In this document: piece by piece, positions 42,598 to 50,251 of the stretch
How positions within the stretch are numbered: position 1 is the stretch's first letter
Layout: every line of letters begins with the position of its first letter
From: Thermogemmatispora onikobensis
GTDB taxonomy: Bacteria; Chloroflexota; Ktedonobacteria; Ktedonobacterales; Ktedonobacteraceae
NCBI RefSeq assembly: GCF_001748285.1
Contig: NZ_BDGT01000030.1
Span: 1 to 64,000 of the forward strand
DNA: 64,000 bases
Reading direction: 5' to 3'
Made by a program: the position numbers and the translations under genes
The notes under the pieces: generated by a model
Databases searched by the model: none
Seen by the model: only the letters and a program-made list of their open reading frames with translations
What the model was told of the DNA's origin: nothing

Positions 42598-44343
42598 TTA
42601 TTTCAACAGACTGAACCCCTGGTTGTTCCCCAGGGGCGCCTCCTGGAGGCGGCGGCTTGCGCGGGCCTCGGAGCTAAAGTACTTCTGCCAGATATCCGGG
42701 GCGTCCTTACTTTCGCCTCCGTGCCGGGTCAGGCGCTGGCGAACACGACAGATCACTGGCGTGTTGACCGCAGCTCCGGCCACAATGACCTGACCCTTCG
42801 AGAGCGCAGGCAGATTGTCCAGCAGATCACGACCGACCCCCTCAATGGCGGCGGCTACGCTCTTCTGATCGATCTCGTTGACAATGCGCATGATGCACTG
42901 GGTCTGGCACTGGCTCAGGACATCGGCGTCGAGCTTGCCGGGCCGCTGACTGATGATGCCCACACCAATGCCGAACTTGCGTCCCTCGGCCAGGACCTGT
43001 TTGAGAATCTGGGTTGAGACCACTTCGGTGCCGCTCGGCGCAAAATGATGGCCTTCCTCCAGCAAGACAAAGACCGGATAGGGCAGATAGGATTCACCAG
43101 AGTGCACTTTGCCACGCTCAGTATTCATGCGCGCCTGATAGAGCCGACGCAGGAGTGTGGCAACAATGACCTGTTGATCACGCTCATCTACTTCGTTCAG
43201 CTGCAATACTGTGCACTGACCGGGCTTGAAGATCTCACGCAGATCCAGATGCTGGACATCATCGAAGGTGAAGCTATCGACAAAGCGCTGCTCGATACGC
43301 CACATCAAAGCGTGCACGGTACTGGAGTCGTCCGCCCCCTCACCGTCTTCGTCGTTCTTGCTGCGCGCCACCTTGCGAATGGCCTCCATCAGGTCCTGCG
43401 CGCTCCAGGGCGTACCTCGCTTCATCTCGTTCACCTTGCGCAAAGCCCGGCTCAGCAGATGCTGCTGCTTCTCAGTCATTTCGGGCAGAAGGTGACGCAT
43501 GTCTCCCATGTTCAGAGTTGAGAGACGGACCTTGACCTGCTCGGGGCGGTAGACGCGCACCTGGGCCCGGTAGCCCTCGACGCCCTCTTCGCCGCTCTCC
43601 TCAGAGAATTCGGGAAGGTTGGGCAATTGATCGAGCGTGCCATACTCGCCATGCGGGTCGACGATGAGCACGCAGGCCTTATTGTAGGGCCGCATCAGCT
43701 CTTCGATAATCACGCTGGCCAGGTAGCTCTTGCCAGCGCCGGTGCTGGCAATAATGGCCAGATGGGTACTGACAAAATCCTTGACTGAGAGGACGATGGG
43801 CACCGCCCCCGGCGTCCGCGTCAGCAGCGAGCCGATGGTCGCCGAGCCAGGCTGACTAACGCGCCTACGGCAAAGGATCTGCGAGAGCATCTCATCGTCC
43901 GCCAGGAAAATCTGCTTGCCCGACTGGGGGGGTATCCAGGGGTTGATAAAGGAGCCGCTTGCGGGATCATAGTAGCCCATGATGGCGACGTGCAGCTCGA
44001 AGAGTTCGTTGGCTCGCGCATCGTAGCCGACCATCGCCGCAACCTGGGCCGGCGAGACCTCCGGCTCTGCCAGGAAGGTGTCAGGATAGAGCTGCAGGGG
44101 AACACGCTTGATAATGCGGCCCAGCACGCGCCGCGCCACCGGCTGGGCGCCGTTCTGACCCCACTCATCAGGCTCATTGAGTTCATAATAGACATACTCG
44201 CCGTTTTTTAGGACCTGCTCATCGTCGCGCGAGACAAAGGTATATTCGTGGGCCGACTCGCCCGGTCCTTTGGTAATGCCCACAGGCTTGCGACCCGTGC
44301 GCCCTGGCGAAACAGGTGGCACATTGGCAGAATCGCTTACCAT
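42598..44343 (-). CDS. herA: HerA-like hexameric DNA translocase/ATPase
   Basis: A 581-aa FtsK/HerA-superfamily ATPase: Walker A IIASTGAGKSYLASVIIEEL, Walker B CVLIVDPHGEYG, a central helical insert (about 240-330), PVFVLLEEGHHFAP with a catalytic acid, and the arginine-finger region IISQRPGKLD. HerA ATPases pump DNA and act with NurA nuclease in end resection, or with various effectors in phage defence. No NurA is nearby; instead a separate HAS-barrel protein lies just upstream, as if the N-terminal HAS barrel had been split off. Confidence 0.87.
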   Translation of the reverse strand: MVSDSANVPPVSPGRTGRKPVGITKGPGESAHEYTFVSRDDEQVLKNGEYVYYELNEPDEWGQNGAQPVARRVLGRIIKRVPLQLYPDTFLAEPEVSPAQVAAMVGYDARANELFELHVAIMGYYDPASGSFINPWIPPQSGKQIFLADDEMLSQILCRRRVSQPGSATIGSLLTRTPGAVPIVLSVKDFVSTHLAIIASTGAGKSYLASVIIEELMRPYNKACVLIVDPHGEYGTLDQLPNLPEFSEESGEEGVEGYRAQVRVYRPEQVKVRLSTLNMGDMRHLLPEMTEKQQHLLSRALRKVNEMKRGTPWSAQDLMEAIRKVARSKNDEDGEGADDSSTVHALMWRIEQRFVDSFTFDDVQHLDLREIFKPGQCTVLQLNEVDERDQQVIVATLLRRLYQARMNTERGKVHSGESYLPYPVFVLLEEGHHFAPSGTEVVSTQILKQVLAEGRKFGIGVGIISQRPGKLDADVLSQCQTQCIMRIVNEIDQKSVAAAIEGVGRDLLDNLPALSKGQVIVAGAAVNTPVICRVRQRLTRHGGESKDAPDIWQKYFSSEARASRRLQEAPLGNNQGFSLLK

Positions 44344-44437: not shown

Positions 44438-45136
44438 TTAGCCGGTGGTTTCAACTTTGAGACGCCAGGCGAAGTTTCGCTTGACAATCGATAGCAGAGA
44501 GAGGTTTTGCGGAAATAGGCGTTCAAGCTGATCAATGATGCAAAGCGCGACCATCGGCAGTAAGCTATTGCGCTGGGCGATGATGTGAGGCAGATAGCCC
44601 ATATGGAGATAGGGCGGCTCGCCCAGCCTGTCAGGGTCGCTGAAGAAGTGGAAAGCGCGCACCTGCTCGTCATCCATCGTCTCAATCTCGCTCCCCAGCT
44701 CCAGCGAAAGCAGGGGAACCCCATGCATGATAGAGAAGACTTCTGTCTGGCCTTCGGAAGTGGTCCTCTCCTGCATCATTCCGAGCACCATGACATAGAT
44801 CAGCACGGCCCGCTCGGCAATGTAGTCCGGCGAGAATAGCTCAACCTGGGTTTCATTGGAGAGACGCGGCCCCAGAGAGCCAAAGCTCGGATTGAGCAGG
44901 ATGGTATCGTAGATCACGCCTACAGCGTAGGTTCTTGGCTCTGTGCTCATACCCAGCACGCGATGCAGCTCCGCCTCGGGATCGTCGCCGCCCTGGCGTG
45001 CACGCACAGCAATGCGCACAAAGCGTCCGAAGGCGTAGTCTTCAGGCGCCGGCTCGACTTCGACCTCGCGCGGTCCATAAATCTGGCAGACGTAATTGAT
45101 ATGGGAATCGGATTTGACGATCTTTCCTATAAACAT
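44438..45136 (-). CDS. HAS-barrel domain protein, HerA partner
   Basis: A 232-aa protein whose start (GKIVKSDSHINYVCQIYGPREVE) looks like a HAS barrel, the beta-barrel domain normally at the N-terminus of HerA and related ATPases. The rest is alpha/beta with no motif I know; no nuclease motif (NurA) is visible. It is transcribed with herA (94-bp gap). ATG 45136 has GAGG 9 nt upstream; GTG 45169 would sit only about 5 nt from the predicted transcription start. Confidence 0.65.
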   Translation of the reverse strand: MFIGKIVKSDSHINYVCQIYGPREVEVEPAPEDYAFGRFVRIAVRARQGGDDPEAELHRVLGMSTEPRTYAVGVIYDTILLNPSFGSLGPRLSNETQVELFSPDYIAERAVLIYVMVLGMMQERTTSEGQTEVFSIMHGVPLLSLELGSEIETMDDEQVRAFHFFSDPDRLGEPPYLHMGYLPHIIAQRNSLLPMVALCIIDQLERLFPQNLSLLSIVKRNFAWRLKVETTG

Positions 45137-45180
45137 GCCGATGCCTCGTGTGCGGGCATGGAGGAGCACGCCCTGTATCT

Positions 45181-45451: not shown

Positions 45452-48400
45452 TCAGGCCGGGCAGATAAGAAAGAAGGGGCAGGTGGGACAGCGTCCCGGA
45501 TCAGCGGGGGCCGCGGCATAATCGTGCTCTTTGAGCCGCTCCAGGCTCTCGACCAGCCTGGCGTAGAGGCTCTGCTCGCGTCGTTGCCCCAGTTTCACGG
45601 CTCTGACCTCGCCCGTGGTCAGGTTGTCGCTGTGGAGCTCGGCCTCCTGTCCAGGATAGTGCTCATGGTAGGCGCGCATATAGAGCAGCTCGCGCGTGTC
45701 AGGCTCTGGCTCTTGCTTACGCCGGCCAAAGCGTGTACGTACAAAGCGCACCGCTTGCTCTGGCTGCCGTGGCATCTCGACGCGATCGACATCGACGCGA
45801 ATGGTTTGGCCAGCAATCTCTATGGTGAAGCCACGCCAGAGCTGCCAGTGCTGGGTCTCGGCGCTCTCTAGCAGCTTGCGATGGAGCTGCTCGGTGACCT
45901 CACGTCCATGTCGCTCGTACAGCGAGGCAAAAGGGGATTCATGGCCGCCAAGCTCGCGCCAGTGTTGGCCATAGAGTTCATGCACCTCTTCGCGCGTCGG
46001 CAGGGCCGCTGACAGCTGCTGCCCCTCAGCGACAGCTCGACGCGCCCGCCCGACCCATTCATAGAGCGCCTCGAGCGTCTTGCGCGTGGCTTGCACAAAG
46101 AGGGCATAGCCTTCTTGAAGCGGCTGAAAACGATAGATGTAGGTGTAGAGATACTTACGCGGGCATTGCTGATAGCATTCGATAGCGGAGGCATTGAGCA
46201 CCCCCGGCTGCATAGCCTGGATAAATTCCTCATGGGGCTGGCGCAGCAGAGCAGCCTCGGACTCCTCGCGCCTCTGCCTCTCTGCTGCGCCAGCGGCAGC
46301 TGATCCGTCCTGTTGTCTGCGCCATTCCGTCCTGACGAGGCGTTCCGGCGGCAGAGCGGCCAGCAGTGGCTCCAAAAAGACTGAGGGTTTGGCTGTACGC
46401 TTGCCTGGACGACGACTATAGCTCAACACGAGATGGTCGCGGGCGCGCGTGATGCCGACATAGAAGAGACAGGCTTCGCCAATCTCGTGCAGGGTGGCCT
46501 CGTCGCTTTCCAGGGAGAGCATGCCATCGGGCGGCGGTATCGGATTATGGCGCCGTGTGGCAGGAAAGCGCTGCTGATTCAGCCCGGGCAAATAGATGAC
46601 AGGAAATTCCAGACCTTTGCTGGCATGGACGGTCATGACTCGCACGACATCGGCCTCGCCGCCCTGGCTCTCCTCAAGACTCTGCTGGCGCGTGCTGCTA
46701 TCCTGGCGTAGCATGAAAAGGACGCGCAAATATTCCAGGAAGCTGCGGACCTGTTCATAGAGAGGGCCAGCCTGAGCTGCGCTGAGAGGCTGGCTTTCGG
46801 CTGGCGCGGGTTCTTCACGCTGCTGACGCTGTTGCTGCAGGTCGAAACGCCGCGCTAGCTGGAGCAAGAGGGCATAGTCAGCCAGGATCGCCCGCGCCTG
46901 GGCGTCGTCGCGAGCCAGGAGGCGGCGCACCTGATCTGTTTCGATGAGGAGATACTGAGCGAGCAGAGACCAGATATCGGGTGCCGTAGTCAGGCGTTGC
47001 AGCAGCTCGCTGAGCAAACGCAGTGCGCGGCGTCCGCCTTCGCTCAGCGTCTCAGGAATGTCGCCACGCAGCACGAGCAGACCCGGGGCCACCTGCTGCG
47101 TGCGCGCCGCCAACAGCAGGGCCTCGATATCGGCCTGACAGAGAGAGTACTCCGGCCAGCGTGCCGCGCGGAGCAGCCCCATGCCATCCGGTCCCGCCAG
47201 CAACAGCAGTGGGGCCAGAGCATCTTTGACGTGTTCCTGCTCCAAAGTGCCCCCGCTCTCGATGACAGGCAGGTCCGCTGCCGCCAGAGCTTGCGAGATG
47301 CGCCGGGCCTGAGCGCGTGTGCGACAGAGCACGACCAGGTCGCGATAGCGATAGCCCTGGCGAGAGCGCTCCTGCAGATCAGCGACCAGGCCCGCCAGCT
47401 CGGCGGCCTCATCTTCCGCTACCGCCAGCGTCACATACGGTTCCGGCAGGGAGGGGCGCACCGCTTCGTTGTGCCGCAGCGCCGCCTCTTCGCCGAGTTG
47501 GCCAGCCTCCAGGCGCTGGAGGCGAAAGGCTTCGGCCAGCGCGACAATATCGGGGCGCGAGCGATAGTTGCGGCTCAGCGAGAGGACCACGGCCCCCGGA
47601 TAATCTTCGCGGAAGCGGACAATGTTGGCTGGGGAGGCCCCGCGGAAGCCGTAAATGGCCTGATTTGCATCTCCCACAACCCAGACGCGACGTGCCTCTC
47701 CTGCTAATAGACGCAGGAGAACTCCGCTGGCTCGGTTGATATCCTGAAATTCATCGACAAGGATGTGTTGGTAGCGATGCTGCAGCTGCTGCAGGAGATC
47801 GCTGTGGCCTTCGAGGAGCTGCACAGTCAGCATAATCAGGCCACCAAAATCGATGTCGCCACGCCGCTCTAGCTCCTCCTGATAAAGAGCATAGACGGAG
47901 GCAATTTCGCGAGCACGCTCTGCTTGCTCACGCTCTTCGACCGTCTGGGCCTGCTCGAGCATCTGCTCCGCCAGCTGACGATAGCGCTCAGGAGTCACCA
48001 GCTCGTCCTTGGCGCGCGAGATGGCCTTGAGTATGTCGGGGAAATAGAGGGTGGGCTGTGTCAGATGATGATAATAATAGAGGGGAAGACGAGGCGTCAG
48101 GCTGCGCAGCAAGAAATACCCTTCGGCGTCGTCGACCAGCGTAAAGTCAGGACGAAGACCAGCCAGCTCGCTATACTGGCGCAGAAACTCGGCGCAGAAA
48201 GCGTGAAAGGTGCTGACCGTCGGCAGCTCCCAGGCGACGGACTTCGGTCCCGCCGAGGTCCGCAGAGCCTGCCCCAGACGCTCCTGCATTTCTTCAGCGG
48301 CTTTGCGCGAAAAGGTGAGGGCCAGAATCGAGCGCGGCGCGACGCCGCAGGAGCGGATCAGATACTCGGCGCGCCCGATAAGGGTGCTGGTTTTGCCGCT

Positions 48401-49240
48401 GCCCGGCCCGGCGATCACCAGGGCCGGTGTCTCCGCCGCAATGGCCGCCTGCTGAAACTCATCGTATGATCGGCCAGCGCCCGCTGGGGCTGGCACAGAT
48501 ACACAAGCAGGCTCAAGACGCCGCTGCGGCGGCTCTGGCAGTTGTTGCTCTGGCTGTGCCCGTGACTCCATGACAGGAGGATATTCTTTGAGGAGCCCGG
48601 TCAGGCGGTTAAGCATGGCCGCCTGCGAGACCCCAAAGCGGTTCGCCAGGGAGGCCGGCGGGAGACCTTGCTCTACATAGAGCGCGCGCACTGACTCCAG
48701 GGGCATCAGCAGCTCGGCGGCGAAGAGATTGGCCGCCAGCTCGCGCTGACTGCGGGGACTATAGGACTGACCAGGGCCGAGTAGCTCCTCGACGCTCCCC
48801 TCATCAGCCAGAGCCCCGATCTCCTCACGGATCTCTCCTTCTCCGCAGCGTTCAGTCTGGTCTTGCTCCTCCTGAGCAAGCGCCGCCAGCCTGCTCGTCA
48901 GAGGTCCCAGGATTTCTTCCAGCCCGGGCAGCAGGAGACGCATCGTCTCCGTTACAGGGCGATGGAGGATGACATGGCCAAGTTCATGCGCGAGCGTAAA
49001 GCGCCGCTGTGGCTCTGGCAGATTGCGGCAGATCCAGATCAGATTGTCGCCCGGCTCCAGATAGCCATAGGTACCTGGGGGGTGATCAGCAGGGTGAAAG
49101 GTGGCGACCTCCAGTCCCAGCCAGGCGACCAGCTCATCTAGCGGCAGGGCCTCGGCCTCCCACAACGACCTGTCGTAGCAATAGCGCTGGCGCAAATAGC
49201 GAGCGGCCAGCGTGGCCAGTGCGCGGGTCTCTTGCTCCAT
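45452..49240 (-). CDS. ImmA/IrrE peptidase - UvrD helicase - PD-(D/E)XK fusion
   Basis: A 1262-aa three-part protein. Residues about 1-220: ImmA/IrrE (DUF955) metallopeptidase with HELGH at 85-89, the downstream acid in ANLFAAELLMP, and a helix-turn-helix-like end (LANRFGVSQAAMLNRL). From about 258: SF1A (UvrD/PcrA) helicase with Walker A AGPGSGKTST, DEFQDIN, GDANQAIYGFRGA, SRNYRS and ASKGLEFPVIYLPG. From about 1035: RecB/AddB-like nuclease domain with an iron-sulphur staple (CPRKYLYTY, and CPTCPFFLIC near the end, C-x2-C-x5-C). The usual D-x-K of the nuclease is RTR in VRFVRTRFG, so cleavage may be lost. GAGG lies about 10 nt before the ATG. Likely a DNA-repair or defence enzyme. Confidence 0.88.
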   Translation of the reverse strand: MEQETRALATLAARYLRQRYCYDRSLWEAEALPLDELVAWLGLEVATFHPADHPPGTYGYLEPGDNLIWICRNLPEPQRRFTLAHELGHVILHRPVTETMRLLLPGLEEILGPLTSRLAALAQEEQDQTERCGEGEIREEIGALADEGSVEELLGPGQSYSPRSQRELAANLFAAELLMPLESVRALYVEQGLPPASLANRFGVSQAAMLNRLTGLLKEYPPVMESRAQPEQQLPEPPQRRLEPACVSVPAPAGAGRSYDEFQQAAIAAETPALVIAGPGSGKTSTLIGRAEYLIRSCGVAPRSILALTFSRKAAEEMQERLGQALRTSAGPKSVAWELPTVSTFHAFCAEFLRQYSELAGLRPDFTLVDDAEGYFLLRSLTPRLPLYYYHHLTQPTLYFPDILKAISRAKDELVTPERYRQLAEQMLEQAQTVEEREQAERAREIASVYALYQEELERRGDIDFGGLIMLTVQLLEGHSDLLQQLQHRYQHILVDEFQDINRASGVLLRLLAGEARRVWVVGDANQAIYGFRGASPANIVRFREDYPGAVVLSLSRNYRSRPDIVALAEAFRLQRLEAGQLGEEAALRHNEAVRPSLPEPYVTLAVAEDEAAELAGLVADLQERSRQGYRYRDLVVLCRTRAQARRISQALAAADLPVIESGGTLEQEHVKDALAPLLLLAGPDGMGLLRAARWPEYSLCQADIEALLLAARTQQVAPGLLVLRGDIPETLSEGGRRALRLLSELLQRLTTAPDIWSLLAQYLLIETDQVRRLLARDDAQARAILADYALLLQLARRFDLQQQRQQREEPAPAESQPLSAAQAGPLYEQVRSFLEYLRVLFMLRQDSSTRQQSLEESQGGEADVVRVMTVHASKGLEFPVIYLPGLNQQRFPATRRHNPIPPPDGMLSLESDEATLHEIGEACLFYVGITRARDHLVLSYSRRPGKRTAKPSVFLEPLLAALPPERLVRTEWRRQQDGSAAAGAAERQRREESEAALLRQPHEEFIQAMQPGVLNASAIECYQQCPRKYLYTYIYRFQPLQEGYALFVQATRKTLEALYEWVGRARRAVAEGQQLSAALPTREEVHELYGQHWRELGGHESPFASLYERHGREVTEQLHRKLLESAETQHWQLWRGFTIEIAGQTIRVDVDRVEMPRQPEQAVRFVRTRFGRRKQEPEPDTRELLYMRAYHEHYPGQEAELHSDNLTTGEVRAVKLGQRREQSLYARLVESLERLKEHDYAAAPADPGRCPTCPFFLICPA

Positions 49241-49462: not shown

Positions 49463-49579
49463 TGAGGGAGACAGGCAGGCGGCTAGTCCTACCTGGTGCG
49501 CGCGGCGGGCGAGACGGCCAGGCGTAGCGCGGCGGCAAGGGAGCGGACACGTCCTCACACCTATGGGAGGTTCCTGGTC

Positions 49580-50251
49580 ATGGAAGCATCCGAAATATTG
49601 ACTCGCGCCAGAGCGGGGGAAGACAAGCCCGATGGCTGGATTGTGCTGCCGTTGCAGCGCGGCAGAGTGATCCTCTCGATCGTCGGCTGGCTCTTTGGGG
49701 CGGCTGTGGGTCTCATCTTATTCGCAGCCTTCTTTCCTGTCATGGTACCCGAAAACTATCACAGCACCTTCGGAGCCATTGCCAGCACGATTTCACTTGG
49801 TATGCTCCTCTTCATCGGTCTGGGCAGCGTTTGGTGTCTGATCAGCGACGCACGTCGTCTCATCAGAGCGCAGGACTATCTGATCGTCATCACACCCGAG
49901 GACTTTGTGCAGCAAGCGGGGAGCAAAGTCGTCCACGTCCCCTTGATCAACGTCCGTTACGTGACAGCCAGAGGCCGTGCCAGGCCAGACCGCACGCCCC
50001 CCACCAACCAGCTTGCCCAAGTTGGCAGCGCCAGCGAAAACATGGTGGGCTTTCTCTTTGGGCGTGGCATGACCCAGTCTCCGGAAGAGCGGCGCAAGGT
50101 GATGAGTTCTCGGGCCCCTACCTCGCTCGCTTTCATCGACACGCGCACCGATACCGAGGTCGTTGTCACGACGGATACAGCCTACGGCGATCCTTTCCTA
50201 ATCGCTGCTTTGCTGAAACAATACGCCGCCAGAGCGCAGCAGATCGCCTAA
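49580..50251 (+). CDS. membrane protein with PH-like domain
   Basis: A 223-aa protein. Two transmembrane helices (about 32-55 and 70-90) are followed by a soluble beta domain with DYLIVITPEDFVQQAGSKV and INVRYVTARG, the pattern of bacterial PH/YdbT-like domains. ATG 49580 has GGGAGG 9 nt upstream. Function unknown. It is followed by coaX in the same direction. Confidence 0.6.
   Translation: MEASEILTRARAGEDKPDGWIVLPLQRGRVILSIVGWLFGAAVGLILFAAFFPVMVPENYHSTFGAIASTISLGMLLFIGLGSVWCLISDARRLIRAQDYLIVITPEDFVQQAGSKVVHVPLINVRYVTARGRARPDRTPPTNQLAQVGSASENMVGFLFGRGMTQSPEERRKVMSSRAPTSLAFIDTRTDTEVVVTTDTAYGDPFLIAALLKQYAARAQQIA

Follow-up and report, generated by a model that had tools for sequence, protein, structure and literature searches.

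The DNA analysed here, a 64,000-nucleotide stretch of a Thermogemmatispora onikobensis contig (NZ_BDGT01000030.1, positions 1 to 64,000; hereafter the window), contains at 45452..49240, on the (-) strand, an ATG-started open reading frame of 1262 amino acids (aa). The encoded protein joins a peptidase of the M78 (ImmA/IrrE) family, a superfamily 1A (SF1A) helicase and a C-terminal iron-sulphur (Fe-S) domain which has the fold, and has lost the catalytic residues, of a nuclease. The fusion is probably a regulatory protease which responds to DNA and rides on a helicase of its own: once DNA is engaged, the M78 domain would cut a helix-turn-helix (HTH) protein, and transcription would be freed. 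Since the fusion is always accompanied by an HTH partner, it probably detects DNA that is damaged or foreign, and responds by cleaving the HTH protein.

The union of the three domains in one protein, proposed in an earlier note drawn from the DNA letters, is borne out by Pfam scores above the curated cut-offs for all of them. Coordinates given below for parts of the gene refer, as for the whole, to the (-) strand. Peptidase_M78 (64.7 bits, cut-off 22) and a C-terminal HTH-like part make up aa 1-225 (48566..49240), as outlined by Pfam, AlphaFold2 and Foldseek. The UvrD/Rep/PcrA-type helicase spans aa 262-943 (46412..48457), with UvrD-helicase at aa 262-548 (238 bits) and UvrD_C at aa 554-943 (115 bits), and its core matches the PcrA structure 1pjr with an E value of 1e-71. 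SF1A motifs I to VI are all intact, as judged by Pfam and invariant motif residues, among which Walker A (GPGSGKT, aa 278-284, 48389..48409) and Walker B (DEFQD, aa 496-500, 47741..47755). PDDEXK_1 (39 bits, cut-off 22) covers aa 1015-1261 (45458..46198), and this domain carries the Fe-S cysteines, C1026 (46163..46165) and the C1251-x2-C1254-x5-C1260 staple (45461..45490). Each motif that the note had read in one frame, HELGH at 85-89, the SF1A motifs and the AddB-type C-x2-C-x5-C staple, is thus confirmed. In an alignment of 23 orthologs H85, E86, H89, C132, Y160, E167, the helicase motifs and the four Fe-S cysteines are invariant.

Full-length orthologs occur in nearly all sampled relatives, at 81-92% identity within the genus, about 50% within the family and 31-45% beyond. 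The fusion is not a product of chance, because HExxH, the helicase motifs and the staple are conserved in full-length homologs, at identities of 31-92%. The architecture is widespread, being found in Chloroflexota and in plasmids of Proteobacteria and Cyanobacteria, and is annotated only as UvrD/PcrA; no description of the M78-helicase fusion was found in the literature searched (open PMC text), and on this search it does not appear to be a widely described enzyme. In the genome of the window the fusion is the sole protein of its type, and a PcrA-type helicase is encoded separately. A longer paralog resides in some related families (L057-L061).

The HELGH zinc/catalytic motif (aa 85-89, 48974..48988) is accompanied by E167, located in the RExxAN sequence of the ExxAN helix (48740..48742), a candidate third metal ligand by comparison with the M78 family. 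The HExxH plus Glu site is retained throughout M78-bearing members, and by its residues the protease of the fusion looks active. As HExxH and E167 are invariant, and the Asp-x-Lys (D-x-K) motif of the C-terminal domain is lost, no hydrolase site other than those of the protease and the ATPase is conserved. HTH proteins are known targets of M78 peptidases. The best phmmer match of the M78 part is the CapP structure 7t5t, and IrrE/PprI match in sequence too. Its AlphaFold2 model (predicted local distance difference test score, pLDDT, 85.6) matches PprI bound to single-stranded DNA (ssDNA; 8sln, the best hit), IrrE (3dti) and CapP (7t5t) with a Foldseek probability of 1.0, at a template modelling (TM) score of only ~0.41. 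A Cys-x3-Asp sequence lying between HExxH and the third Glu is shared with CapP, and corresponds in the fusion to C132 (48845..48847, invariant in the 23 orthologs) and D or E at 136; the cysteine of CapP presumably acts as a switch, a role which is not claimed for C132. ssDNA of at least 8 nt activates PprI, and the active enzyme cleaves the repressor DdrO (PMC10904395). In CapP, too, ssDNA is the activator, and CapH is the protein cleaved (PMC13373217).

The C-terminal 301 residues were modelled with a pLDDT of 87.5, and the PD-(D/E)XK fold stands, since Foldseek matches the model to Cas4-family ACE1, AdnA and AddB. The metal-binding Asp and Lys of this superfamily are required for cleavage. 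In the window protein D1152 is retained, and R-x-R replaces D-x-K, the catalytic Asp being R1168 and the Lys R1170 (45731..45787). The replacement was assessed in an alignment of 78 C-terminal domains, 58 from M78-bearing members and 20 from M78-less relatives. D-x-K is lost in 58/58 of the former, Asp being mostly changed into Arg, and otherwise into another non-acidic residue, and is intact in 20/20 of the latter; the Fe-S staple is present in all 78. Loss of the motif and presence of M78 are associated with a Fisher p of 5e-19, a value which ignores kinship and does not denote many independent events. In a tree from which the M78 part was left out, the M78-bearing and M78-less groups fall on opposite sides of one fully supported branch, and a single evolutionary switch, nuclease for protease, is therefore indicated. 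The C-terminal nuclease is predicted to be catalytically dead and, because D-x-K is replaced, the domain is not expected to cut DNA. The label of iron-sulphur nuclease given to the domain by the earlier note is accordingly right for the fold and for the four-cysteine staple only, as the catalytic motif is lost, and active processing of DNA ends by this domain finds no support, given the replaced residues in all 58 peptidase-bearing members.

The same data bear on the idea that the fusion is a recombination or end-processing helicase of the AddAB/AdnAB type, in which the C-terminal domain only binds DNA, cutting being left perhaps to a separate nuclease, and M78 is an accessory regulator, or controls its own expression via the HTH protein. 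The match of the C-terminal fold to AdnA and AddB speaks for it, and so does the result obtained when the fusion protein was searched against the window's genome, where no other full AddA/RecB-like match was seen (a PcrA-type helicase and a weak match only). A HerA-type ATPase gene, downstream of the fusion within the genus, favours it as well, but this linkage stops at the genus; D-x-K is lost in all members, and the presence of a gene pair, HTH and sigma-like, wherever the fusion occurs is left unexplained. Such an enzyme is unlikely.

The pair emerges from the gene order. Outside the clade of the window, in almost every lineage, a sigma-70 region 4 gene is followed by an XRE-like HTH gene, and this by the M78-helicase gene, all on the same strand; the HTH partner measures ~190-260 aa in linked lineages. 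The trio is adjacent and co-directional in loci L057, L058, L059, L061, L075, L076, L091-L095 and L195, the latter an outlying ortholog, and the HTH gene is directly upstream of the M78-helicase in L074 and L071/L296. L060 is the exception to partner linkage among the loci read. Pfam detects HTH_31 in L075, and Sigma70_r4_2 both in this locus and in L058; proteobacterial forms were recognised mainly by alignment, divergent plasmid forms by alignment and position. The window's genome has all three genes, but the HTH/sigma-like pair is unlinked from the fusion. A search with the HTH profile identified the HTH partner at G000:C13:26159-26881 (241 aa; HTH_31 32.3 bits, cut-off 27), directly preceded by the sigma-like gene (G000:C13:25342-26193; Sigma70_r4_2 33.9 bits, cut-off 25.7). 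The irrE and ddrO genes are likewise unlinked in Deinococcus. In the tree from which M78 was omitted, the unlinked clade is nested amid linked forms.

To monitor co-occurrence of fusion and partner, one set of 301 genomes of the phylum was searched with both the HTH and the M78-helicase profiles. The HTH profile matches 45 genomes. The M78-helicase profile matches 40, along its whole length or the greater part of it, and one of these matches is cut by a contig end. Both are present in 40 genomes, HTH only in 5, the fusion only in none, and neither in 256 (Fisher p 1e-44, kinship ignored). The HTH-only genomes (G019, G023, G032, G035, G038) are incomplete, and belong to the same order. Outside the order both proteins were found in seven genomes of six families, and sister genomes in families f5, f10, f15, f29 and f53 have neither; presence and absence of the two thus covary inside these families. 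The notion of a sensor which couples DNA unwinding to proteolytic signalling, put forward in the note, draws strength from the intact peptidase site, the kinship with PprI, IrrE and CapP and the co-occurring HTH partner, and has to part with the active nuclease.

A constant partner is hard to reconcile with a different use of the protease, akin to that of SPRTN, the eukaryotic protease of DNA-protein crosslinks, in which the helicase would meet proteins stuck on DNA, and M78 would cut them. A metalloprotease with intact HExxH physically joined to a DNA motor would suit this task. However, the best M78 relatives are repressor-specific proteases, no SPRTN-like homology was seen, and a protease so strictly paired with a small HTH protein and a sigma-like gene is suggestive of one dedicated substrate. 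A crosslink protease is thus very unlikely; both this hypothesis and end resection are weakened because they leave the partner genes unexplained.

The regulatory protease we favour could work as follows. The SF1A motor and the dead Fe-S nuclease domain would grip, and move on, broken, single-stranded or processed DNA, and such engagement would activate or position the M78 peptidase. The activated M78 would cut the XRE-like HTH protein, and cleavage may free the companion sigma-70-like factor and/or de-repress genes. The mode would be akin to that of CapP/CapH or PprI/DdrO, with the addition of a built-in motor.

Several points weigh against this reading. It starts from the observed architecture, the retained protease and helicase residues, the lost nuclease residues, the gene linkage and the co-occurrence, and from these we infer HTH cleavage, a trigger by DNA or helicase, and sigma release. 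The HTH partner profile was derived from linked examples. Nuclease loss and peptidase gain, lying on one branch, are one event and not many. The HTH and sigma-like genes do not adjoin the window gene, and the promoters of the fusion and of the sigma/HTH pair were seen to have no operator in common. Since Pfam detects sigma region 4 only, an HTH regulator of another kind may lie behind the “sigma factor”. Finally, the window's genome also encodes LexA, and one other M78 protein; a role of the fusion as SOS replacement was rejected because LexA is present.

A few observations concern the pairs themselves. Upstream of the sigma-like gene of the window's genome a near-palindrome, CATCCAGCTAGATGATAACG (L185:5073-5092, G000:C13:25072-25091), is conserved in the genus, and is a possible autoregulatory site; the genome hosts one exact copy, and one match with 3 mismatches, the same number obtained with the reversed control. 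The sigma-like/HTH pair (G000:C13:25342-26881, L185:5343-6882) adjoins a methyltransferase-like gene and an Ffh-like gene. Several genomes of the family host a second type of sigma-like/HTH pair (L187:5833-7406, L189:5702-7265, L192, L193, L194), which has other surroundings, with a glycogen-synthase-like gene nearby, and is unlinked to any M78-helicase. In locus L298 (genome G179) the trio is ~0.9 kb from genes resembling Cas3 and Cse1 of a type I CRISPR-Cas system.

The M78-helicase is also a component of plasmids, being found on 86 of 72,556, among which plasmids of Acinetobacter, Rhizobium, Agrobacterium, Mesorhizobium, Xanthomonas and Leptolyngbya. The plasmid order is sigma-like, HTH-like, M78-helicase, multiubiquitin, (E2), ThiF, DUF6527. 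Loci of this type come from Rhizobium (L201, L306), Leptolyngbya (L202), Cereibacter (L203), Sinorhizobium (L205), Mesorhizobium (L206), Acinetobacter (L091) and Klebsiella (L304), the partner genes of L304 and L306 being read from position and size only; Robbsia (L204) has the trio with a divergent ubiquitin part. The trio is adjacent and co-directional throughout L201-L206, and HExxH is kept, and D-x-K absent, in all six plasmid proteins checked. Pfam detects Multi_ubiq, Prok-E2_E and ThiF in the Sphingomonas locus L094. Several of the plasmids carrying cassettes L201-L206, L091, L304 and L306 are conjugative, and PADLOC does not include such a system.

In the 2006 survey in which Iyer, Burroughs and Aravind defined polyUbl operons (PMC1779556), neither a helicase or UvrD nor a sigma factor is mentioned, and the location of the trio upstream of these operons appears unreported. 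Bub/CBASS operons elsewhere carry regulators responsive to ssDNA or damage, CapW, CapH+CapP or CapK+CapS (PMC13373217). As these reside at that place, the plasmid trio most likely has an equivalent regulatory role.

The cassettes raise the question of defence. The fusion could be an anti-phage sensor or effector, the plasmid forms being immune operons and the window copy a domesticated, or solitary, descendant which has kept the recognition of foreign DNA. Shedu, AbiEii, restriction-modification and CRISPR-like genes adjoin the multiubiquitin, ThiF and DUF6527 cassettes, and PADLOC scores the fusion against GajB and other defence helicases. Yet, the GajB matches span the generic UvrD core only, and membership in Gabija was rejected on this ground; the annotated neighbours of the window gene are HerA-like, GT9, CoaX and SOD, none of which, judged by annotation, resembles GajA. 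In addition, protection against phages by Bub-type operons is not yet demonstrated (PMC13373217). In the family of the window the fusion gene is single, vertically inherited and stably placed; it is chromosomal, whereas plasmid relatives adjoin defence genes. An anti-phage sensor or effector of this kind is quite unlikely, though the fusion may serve either repair or defence. A phage origin was also considered, and set aside; no match was found in annotated phages, and one possible contig (L207) among viral contigs.

Of the genes next to the fusion, the HerA-type ATPase (DUF87; 42598-44343, (-)) and a 243-aa protein with no Pfam match (44438-45169, (-)) are co-directional and downstream. HerA/NurA-type end resection involving the former gene was rejected, as the linkage is limited to the genus. 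A small membrane protein (49574-50251, (+)), encoded divergently from the fusion and with no Pfam family, is conserved beside it across the family.

Taken further, the regulatory protease may belong to an undescribed and widespread signalling system, a proposal we advance tentatively, as one which could well fail. The processive motor would be the detector, the pseudo-nuclease a clamp for DNA ends or ssDNA; M78 would cut an HTH anti-sigma factor or repressor, and a dedicated sigma factor would be freed. Plasmids would switch on ubiquitin-like operons in this way, and the lineage of the window would keep a chromosomal DNA-damage response parallel to LexA. CapW, CapH+CapP, CapK+CapS and PprI-DdrO, known regulators through which bacterial immunity responds to DNA damage, await ssDNA passively; a helicase-borne protease would instead detect DNA while it is being processed. 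That nuclease residues were lost as a protease was gained illustrates how a DNA-degrading machine can be rebuilt for signalling. The fusion also provides multiubiquitin operons with a regulator, and a little-studied bacterial group with a transcriptional target open to testing.

Among known systems, CapH+CapP are similar to the fusion in many respects. CapP has the M78 domain closest in sequence, including C-x3-D, an HTH partner is encoded just upstream, as in linked members, and the system heads ubiquitin-like operons. Unlike CapP, the fusion has a UvrD helicase, an Fe-S pseudo-nuclease and a sigma-70-like third partner. The M78 protease has a dedicated HTH partner in both cases, linked in relatives of the fusion and in trans in the window's genome; unlike CapH+CapP, the gene of the window's family is unlinked to HTH, and is not upstream of an immune operon, as plasmid relatives are. 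IrrE/PprI-DdrO of Deinococcus share with the fusion the M78 fold (8sln, 3dti), an HTH-type partner and, as to the window's genome, the in-trans arrangement. PprI has a GAF-like domain where the fusion has a helicase, no sigma-like partner accompanies IrrE/PprI-DdrO, and the HTH partner of the fusion is built unlike DdrO, having long N-terminal and C-tail regions. AdnA, AddB and ACE1 share with the fusion both fold and four-cysteine Fe-S staple, but D-x-K is replaced in the latter. The whole SF1A core is shared with PcrA, UvrD and Rep, to which the fusion adds an N-terminal peptidase and a C-terminal pseudo-nuclease. Gabija GajB, the top PADLOC score, has the same UvrD-type core; the fusion is larger, and fused to a peptidase. 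Type 6e polyUbl operons (PMC1779556) share multiubiquitin, E2-like, ThiF/JAB and metal-binding protein genes with L094 and the plasmid loci; in contrast to both type 6e and plasmid loci, the window gene has no such operon beside it.

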